A DNA stretch of 38,919 nucleotides. Source: Clostridia bacterium. GTDB taxonomy: Bacteria > Bacillota > Clostridia > RGIG6154. The notes below the pieces were generated by a model. That model did not search any database. It was given only the letters and a program-made list of their open reading frames with translations, and was not told the DNA's origin. Made by a program: the position numbers and the translations under genes. Location of the stretch: assembly GCA_017409875.1 (NCBI GenBank), contig JAFQRW010000008.1, positions 1-38,919 on the forward strand, read 5' to 3'. Positions 5,253 to 5,692 of the stretch are shown one piece after another (the first letter of the stretch is position 1; each line of letters opens with the position of its first letter).

Positions 5253-5281
5253 TTGATTTTTTTTAATGTTTGTTGTATACT
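5253..5281 (+). promoter_or_regulatory. Sigma-A promoter for the tRNA-like RNA / tRNA-Glu unit
   Basis: TTGATT (5253-5258) and TATACT (5276-5281) are separated by 17 bases. It lies back to back with the alaS promoter and about 70 bases before the tRNA-like sequence. No other plus-strand promoter is evident before tRNA-Glu, so both RNAs probably share it. Confidence 0.65.
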
Positions 5282-5353: not shown

Positions 5354-5538
5354 GGCTCTATCGTCTAATGGTTAGGACTTTGGCCCCAAGAGGCCGGAAT
5401 AGGGGTGTCCGCGCAGCGACCGCCGCCGGTGGCGGAAAAAGGGAGCGCGCAAGGGCTGTGCCGCGGTCGGAAAATCGAGCGGAAGCGGAAAGATTTTCCG
5501 GGTACCGCAAACGGGTAGAATCCCGGATGAGAACCCCA
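5354..5538 (+). ncRNA. tRNA-Glu-derived, GC-rich structured RNA (unrecognised)
   Basis: The first 26 or so bases (acceptor 5' strand, D-arm) are identical to the tRNA-Glu gene at 5565, and a 15-base block around GGCCGGAATAGGGGT is shared again. The anticodon arm between them has diverged (TTTGGCC / GGCCGGA stem, six-base loop CCAAGA, no U33). After AGGGGT a segment of about 130 bases follows that is about 65% GC by hand count, in an otherwise AT-rich window. Possible stems are GGGGT 5402-5406 with ACCCC 5533-5537; GCGCAGC 5411-5417 with GCTGTGC 5455-5461; CGACCG 5417-5422 with CGGTCG 5464-5469; CCGCC 5423-5427 with GGCGG 5431-5435; CGGAAAATC 5468-5476 with GATTTTCCG 5492-5500; CCGGG 5498-5502 with CCCGG 5522-5526. 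Some of these compete or cross. Near the 3' end CGGG-TAGAAT-CCCG resembles a T-arm, then AGAACC and CCA. It may be a dedicated ncRNA or a tRNA gene broken by an insertion. I do not recognise the family. Confidence 0.5.
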
Positions 5539-5564
5539 CAAAAGAACATAAAAAATAAATATAA

Positions 5565-5639
5565 GGCTCTATCGTCTAATGGTTAGGACACGGCCCTCTC
5601 AAGGCCGGAATAGGGGTTCGAATCCCCTTAGAGTCACCA
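5565..5639 (+). tRNA. tRNA-Glu (anticodon CTC)
   Basis: A full cloverleaf is seen: acceptor GGCTCTA pairs with TAGAGTC, anticodon stem CGGCC/GGCCG with loop CTCTCAA (anticodon CTC), T-arm AGGGG/CCCCT with loop TTCGAAT, discriminator A and encoded CCA. It lies 26 bases after the tRNA-like RNA and directly before a strong terminator. Confidence 0.95.
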
Positions 5640-5675: not shown

Positions 5676-5692
5676 CTAAGGGGATTCGAACC
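5676..5692 (-). repeat. Inverted 17-base copy of the tRNA-Glu T-arm
   Basis: The 17 bases are the exact reverse complement of 5615-5631, which covers the T-loop and the start of the acceptor 3' strand of tRNA-Glu. The two copies flank the terminator hairpin, making a larger interrupted palindrome. Such a tRNA 3' fragment is what a past integration event would leave, but no integrase remains here. Confidence 0.6.

Follow-up and report, generated by a model that had tools for sequence, protein, structure and literature searches.

The att sites of phages and ICEs lie at tRNA T-loops, where an intact tRNA is left by duplication of its 5' or 3' part. REP and REPIN sequences, with RAYT (TnpA-REP), are short ORF-less hairpin repeats, considered to be mobile in the form of single-stranded DNA (PMC3116915, PMC8266576). 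Single-strand transposition is also the mode of the IS200/IS605-type elements, such as IS608 and ISDra2, in which insertion is strand-specific, takes place 3' of a short target and involves structured ends (PMC6006769). Amongst retrotransposons, Ty1/Ty3 and the Dictyostelium TRE elements, whose host genomes are compact, find safe sites close to tRNA genes (PMC5911963, PMC5006619).

Below, we describe a segment (positions 5354–5538) of a 38,919-nt stretch of DNA from a Clostridia bacterium (contig JAFQRW010000008.1), here called the window. With a probability of about 0.7, we take its core (5407–5514) to be one copy of a mobile element that is non-autonomous, short (about 110–120 nt) and without an ORF, and that enters single-stranded hairpin loops. 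The family is referred to as R1, the covariance model of one of its hairpins, P2. Like REP and REPIN sequences, R1 elements are short, ORF-less, dispersed, intergenic and hairpin-folding. They differ in their length of about 110–120 nt, in having two hairpins with tandem G-A steps, the second of which (P3) is exchangeable, and in the absence of a constant GTAG; at the hairpin foot, GTAG is found in the M2 subtype alone, most copies starting with GGGGA, GGTGA or GGGGAG. They also nest in other hairpins and in tRNA loops, and are not associated with the Y1 transposase family, which is present in 24 of 34 carriers and 24 of 39 non-carriers. Their resemblance to the IS200/IS605-type elements would lie in insertion on one strand, directly after a short target, and in structured ends, with no target duplication seen; in contrast to those elements, R1 has no transposase, prefers hairpin loops, has TGG or TRGG as its target and apparently replaces one target base at insertion. 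The element would work like a REP/REPIN or an IS200/IS605-type element, yet fails on the constant GTAG and on co-occurrence with a transposase. The use of tRNA-gene surroundings recalls Ty1/Ty3 and TRE, although those are large, coding and inserted at fixed distances, whereas R1 is a bacterial, non-coding element of about 110 nt found inside the loops of partial tRNAs. As at the att sites, an intact tRNA is preserved, but neither integrase nor ORF is present and D and anticodon loops are used as well.

Anatomy of the segment upstream of tRNA-Glu

A preliminary description, made from the sequence of the window, took the segment for a tRNA-Glu-like RNA fused to a GC-rich folded domain, in the general manner of tmRNA. 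The anatomy is real, but the segment is not a tRNA-like gene with a function of its own. Its features, with their neighbours, are as follows.

5253–5281, plus strand: promoter-like site belonging to the tRNA-Glu unit (TTGATT-17-TATACT), here 5' of the element; from a scan
5354–5406, plus strand: partial copy of tRNA-Glu (t1–t53), anticodon loop CCAAGA, without 3' acceptor strand; from alignment to 5565–5639
5407–5514, plus strand: core element of the R1 family, about 110 nt, inserted in the T arm; from the full-core alignment A2
5411–5450, plus strand: hairpin P2, which has a tandem G-A step, with 5411–5414 and 5416–5417 paired to 5445–5450, and 5420–5421 to 5441–5442
5423–5440, plus strand: further part of P2, with 5423–5427 paired to 5431–5435 and bulge AAAAA at 5436–5440
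5456–5514, plus strand: hairpin P3 (module M1), with its base 5456–5459 paired to 5511–5514, and GCGGT 5463–5467 to ACCGC 5504–5508
5469–5503, plus strand: upper part of P3, with 5469–5476 paired to 5492–5499 and a bulge near 5501–5503
5515–5539, plus strand: 3' flank, comprising the T-arm remnant TAGAATCCC and GAACCCC, complementary to GGGGT at 5402–5406; from sequence
5540–5564: spacer, 25 nt, AT-rich, too short for a promoter
5565–5639, plus strand: intact tRNA-Glu(CUC); from ARAGORN and Rfam
5676–5692, minus strand: antisense 17-nt copy of tRNA-Glu t51–t67, behind the terminator

The 5' part is, as had been proposed, a copy of the downstream tRNA-Glu: its first 25 nt are identical (5354–5378), and over 5354–5406 the differences from t1–t53 are confined to the anticodon arm, where a stem is retained and the 6-nt loop CCAAGA replaces CTCTCAA. 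Partial tRNA copies with a kept anticodon stem and a replaced loop are seen repeatedly (CCAAGA, window 5378–5400; TAACACAA and CGGACAA, L002; L183). The insert was also correctly described as GC-rich (66.7%, against 36.5% for the whole window); R1 matches it at 5411–5452 with 51.3 bits, and the left border of the core is ambiguous within 5404–5407. The reading of its 3' end as a T arm followed by CCA did not survive: CGGG is the core's own 3' end, TAGAATCCC is the remnant of the T arm, and the 3' acceptor strand is absent. Similar remnants accompany two other copies in the same genome (L002, L003).

An upstream promoter had been proposed, and a promoter-like site does lie at 5253–5281, in a scan that found 2 such sites against 1.2 expected by chance; a similar sequence stands 5' of tRNA-Glu in a same-family genome without the element (L189). 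Since the 25-nt spacer cannot fit a promoter, the element is likely to be co-transcribed with tRNA-Glu, judging from the sequence. The intact tRNA-Glu(CUC) is the sole CUC copy amongst the 34 tRNAs read from this genome. The 17-nt antisense copy behind its terminator is possibly the remnant of a downstream-type unit (see below), occupied counterparts of which occur at other tRNAs; antisense copies of at least 12 nt accompany 20 of the 92 tRNAs in the fetched loci. Together with the end of tRNA-Glu, the antisense T-arm and acceptor copy forms a long palindrome.

It should be noted that ARAGORN and Rfam call a tRNA only at 5565, and none at 5354–5538. A tRNA or tRNA-like gene is rejected on this ground, on the missing 3' acceptor strand and on the 6-nt loop. 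The comparison with tmRNA is accurate in so far as a tRNA part, the tRNA-Glu copy, is joined to a large structured insert, and fails in that the insert is a separate, dispersed element with various hosts; the window segment has no tag ORF, no acceptor closure and no match in ARAGORN or to the covariance model (RF00023), while the same tools detect a real tmRNA in L002/L007. That no known family matches is borne out by Rfam 15 (including raiA, introns and ribozymes), in which no core from the window and 15 loci exceeded the gathering threshold; a group I or group II intron is rejected on the same search. The element is therefore outside tRNA, tmRNA and every Rfam family, and the open-access literature, which is a part of the whole, yielded no earlier description of the R1 repeat.

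Conserved fold and distribution of the R1 family

The folding energy of the segment alone is unremarkable (z −1.14), and the case therefore rests on its relatives. P2 was derived from covariation over 103 sequences together with the fold of the window copy, and P3 from covariation over 59. The fold is real and covaries very strongly. In P2, 96.2% of cells are paired against 78.8% after shuffling, with a covariation score of 0.431 against 0.123; the hairpin has a CGCYGCC-KGK-GGCRG tip and a bulge of five bases as well as tandem G-A/A-G steps. For the full M1 cores (n = 59, 25 pairs) the corresponding values are 93.8% against 74.0% and 0.495 against 0.147, both sides having changed in 18 of the 25 pairs; the two-pair base of P3 covaries too (TG/CA, GT/AC, TT/AA, GG/CC). 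P3 can be exchanged, at least four other modules being found in its place. The preliminary description had drawn crossing stems (5411–5416/5456–5461 and 5417–5422/5464–5469), for which the covariation score is 0.069 against 0.086 in shuffles; the fold that the aligned sequences conserve is one of two nested hairpins on one junction.

G-T occupies 15 of the 831 paired cells in the core stems, against 176 expected, and A-C also 15, whereas G-T makes up 8.0% in the stems of tRNAs from the fetched loci (p 1.3e-11). This G-U test speaks against a structured regulatory RNA. Because G-T is tolerated no better than A-C, the stems favour folded single-stranded DNA over RNA, and because the G-A steps are invariant, the tRNA-sense strand would be the folded one. 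The stems thus look as if they had been selected as DNA, although the scarcity of G-T could in part reflect a copying process that restores complementarity. Covariation confined to Watson–Crick pairs offers a simple way to separate DNA folds from RNA folds in screens for 'structured RNA'.

The window copy is one of four in its genome, the others lying next to tRNA-Arg(ACG), 3' of tRNA-Ser(GCT) and 5' of tRNA-Leu(UAG). A pattern made from these copies matches at least 119 stretches of GTDB genomes, the matches listed being nearly all from gut or rumen Oscillospiraceae and Ruminococcus-like MAGs, and also five IMG/VR contigs. The R1 model finds copies in 44 of the 291 genomes sampled from the class, up to 10 per genome. 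Beyond these, an Elusimicrobia MAG has seven copies, some of them behind tRNA-Glu and tRNA-Thr and three in tandem behind tRNA-Gly, and the cultured gut species Vescimonas fastidiosa has 36 R1 matches in 861 kb. At least 13 kinds of tRNA adjoin copies of the element. Exact tandem duplications of it occur in L184, and copies lie directly behind the stop codon of guaA in R. flavefaciens (two) and in two genomes of another genus, one with a single copy and the other with a tandem array of about five (L174, L175, L282). The recurrence at guaA in distant genera could mean function or old inheritance.

Occupied and empty insertion sites

Two same-family genomes (G003, G004) have the promoter followed by an intact tRNA-Glu(CUC), with nothing between. 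The preliminary description had held that either a lack of homologues with the stems or a plain tRNA-Glu at this place in all relatives would mark a single broken tRNA gene; the outcome is mixed, in that homologues do retain the stems and close relatives have the plain tRNA-Glu, a combination that fits what mobile insertion predicts. The element is dispersed with sharp borders. In one MAG, two copies share 94.8% identity over exactly 115 bp and have flanks that are unrelated; in G287, one stretch, nested in another insert, occurs both behind tRNA-Arg and behind tRNA-Gln, with 96% identity over 159 bp.

Occupied and empty hairpin loops are found together on one replicon, pMM35_01 of V. fastidiosa MM35 (NZ_AP023416.1), of which 861 kb were searched with R1 and 800 kb read for copies. 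These 800 kb have 24 copies of exactly 116 nt in repeats, with a mean identity of 93.8%. Twenty of them sit in the four-base loop of the hairpin GCGGGCCGATG-TRGG-CATCGGCCCCT, of which about 60 empty copies are present in the same 800 kb; the other four follow TGG in a second repeat, GTCATTGCGAG...CGTGG^CAATCCG (the caret marking the insertion), which also has empty copies. Insertion is always on the strand whose loop bears GG, 3' of TGG or TRGG, and no tRNA is involved in these hairpins. Occupied and empty hairpins compared show neither terminal inverted repeats nor target-site duplication, and a classical DDE MITE is accordingly rejected. This 861-kb 'plasmid' (L330–L369) bears mutS2 and rimP-nusA-infB, and may be a chromid or a part of the chromosome; two further abundant hairpin repeats are found on it.

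At tRNA genes, the element sits within partial copies of the tRNA, interrupting a D, an anticodon or a T loop. The upstream layout (45 copies, including that of the window) consists of the 5' part of the tRNA, usually exactly from t1, followed by the core; a short remainder and a leader separate this from the intact tRNA. The break falls in the D-loop in 30, the anticodon loop in 9 and the T-loop region in 3, and in most copies 9 nt 5' of a conserved CGASC. In the downstream layout (33 copies), the intact tRNA and its terminator are usually followed by an antisense copy of the tRNA's 3' part, after which come the core and a sense 3' part that usually runs to the 3' end of the tRNA. Tested directly, a flush host stem adjoining the core was not significant overall, with tRNA loci no higher than shuffles and a weak signal elsewhere; the evidence for loop insertion at tRNAs is therefore where the copies map on the intact tRNA.

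There is a strong preference for one strand. An intact tRNA lies no more than 450 nt from 90 distinct copies, 85 of which are on the tRNA strand (p 8e-20), whereas away from tRNAs the orientation relative to neighbouring ORFs, called crudely, is about even; a bias of replication strand behind the co-orientation with tRNAs is unsupported on the same crude calls. In the IS200/IS605-style test, TGG or TRGG precedes the insert in the repeat hairpins, the D-loops (TGG) and the tRNA-Pro anticodon loop (TTTGGG), all of which obey the GG-strand rule, and this rule alone would explain much of the tRNA strand bias. T-loop copies differ, that of the window included, in following the TGG rule less cleanly.

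Proposed mechanism, alternatives and further inserts

We suggest that the folded plus strand of the element enters exposed G-rich hairpin loops, usually directly 3' of a G-rich triplet (TGG/TRGG) and always on the GG-bearing strand. tRNA genes would be favoured in that their D, anticodon and T arms are abundant, exposed hairpins, and they would be tolerant sites in that a partial duplication spares one intact tRNA while RNase P or a terminator removes the remainder. In the window, the tRNA-Glu copy that stands between the promoter and the intact tRNA comprises the 5' part, and the element would have entered it at the T arm. As to what moves it, neighbouring ORFs compared between copies include no recurring one, and an autonomous version with an ORF is rejected on that ground; reverse transcriptase, like the Y1 transposase, is unassociated (14 of 34 carriers, 16 of 39 non-carriers). 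It is conceivable, and we put it forward tentatively, that R1 represents a new class of mobile DNA that reads structure rather than sequence, in which one folded single strand, about 115 nt long, inserts into the loop of another, nests recursively (a hairpin inside a hairpin, an element inside an element) and swaps its domains. Its main landing sites would be tRNA genes, in two bacterial phyla or more, and it would be moved by an enzyme of host or phage that has so far no known connection with elements of this sort.

Alternatively, the insert might be a functional cis-acting RNA of tRNA operons that controls how the neighbouring tRNA, or an mRNA upstream such as that of guaA, is transcribed, processed or degraded. 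The sense orientation at tRNA loci (85 of 90), the position between promoter and tRNA, the recurrence behind guaA and the conserved fold would all suit such an RNA. We nevertheless think it unlikely, in that the tRNA differs between species, the same locus is empty in same-family genomes, orientation to ORFs is about even away from tRNAs, tRNA-free hairpin repeats bear the element and the stems show no G-U preference. The even orientation also tells against an invader at the RNA level, a ribozyme or an RNA of intron type that would enter RNA hairpin loops by reverse splicing and then be copied into DNA again; loop insertion on a strict strand and modular, conserved, RNA-like motifs are what such an invader would give, yet the pair statistics fit DNA, Rfam gives no intron or ribozyme family and reverse transcriptase is unlinked, which makes it very improbable.

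We give equally little credence to a single-stranded recombination site, like integron attC, at which a tyrosine recombinase shuffles small cassettes at tRNA genes. Tandem units with shared arms and different cores (L061), the exact tandem duplications of L184 and the recurrence of tRNA-site integrases nearby point that way, but such integrases are expected beside tRNAs regardless, and the 116-nt copies in repeat hairpins come without a cassette. As for a one-off decayed duplication of tRNA-Glu with an unrelated GC-rich insert, the partial tRNA copy, its altered anticodon loop and the ordinary folding energy would agree with it, but the well over 100 related copies with covarying stems already refute it, and the chance left to it is negligible.

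If the element is mobile as a folded single strand, the R1 family, to which the interest attaches rather than to the single window copy, would account for repeats that are strewn around the tRNA genes of Clostridia from gut and rumen, often at contig ends of their assemblies. It makes a testable question of whether a hairpin loop is itself an insertion target, and as V. fastidiosa bears occupied and empty loops together, the enzyme and the chemistry can be sought directly.

R1 is not the only insert at these loci. A screen for partial copies, covering the tRNAs of the window's genome and part of those of G287, found further inserts that are not R1. A second structured type, about 170 nt long, lies behind tRNA terminators in the window's genome, at tRNA-Ala (L214), tRNA-Lys (L219) and tRNA-Thr (L210), and is seen also in L040, L080, L158 and L002; Rfam finds no family for it in the loci scanned. 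It has a terminator-like P2 (TTAA-AAAAC..GTTTTTA), a strand-swapped M1-like module and a terminal sense acceptor with CCA, and in L245 and L254 it contains a nested R1. In L061, two tandem downstream units behind tRNA-Thr have the same arms and terminator and different cores, in a cassette-like arrangement.
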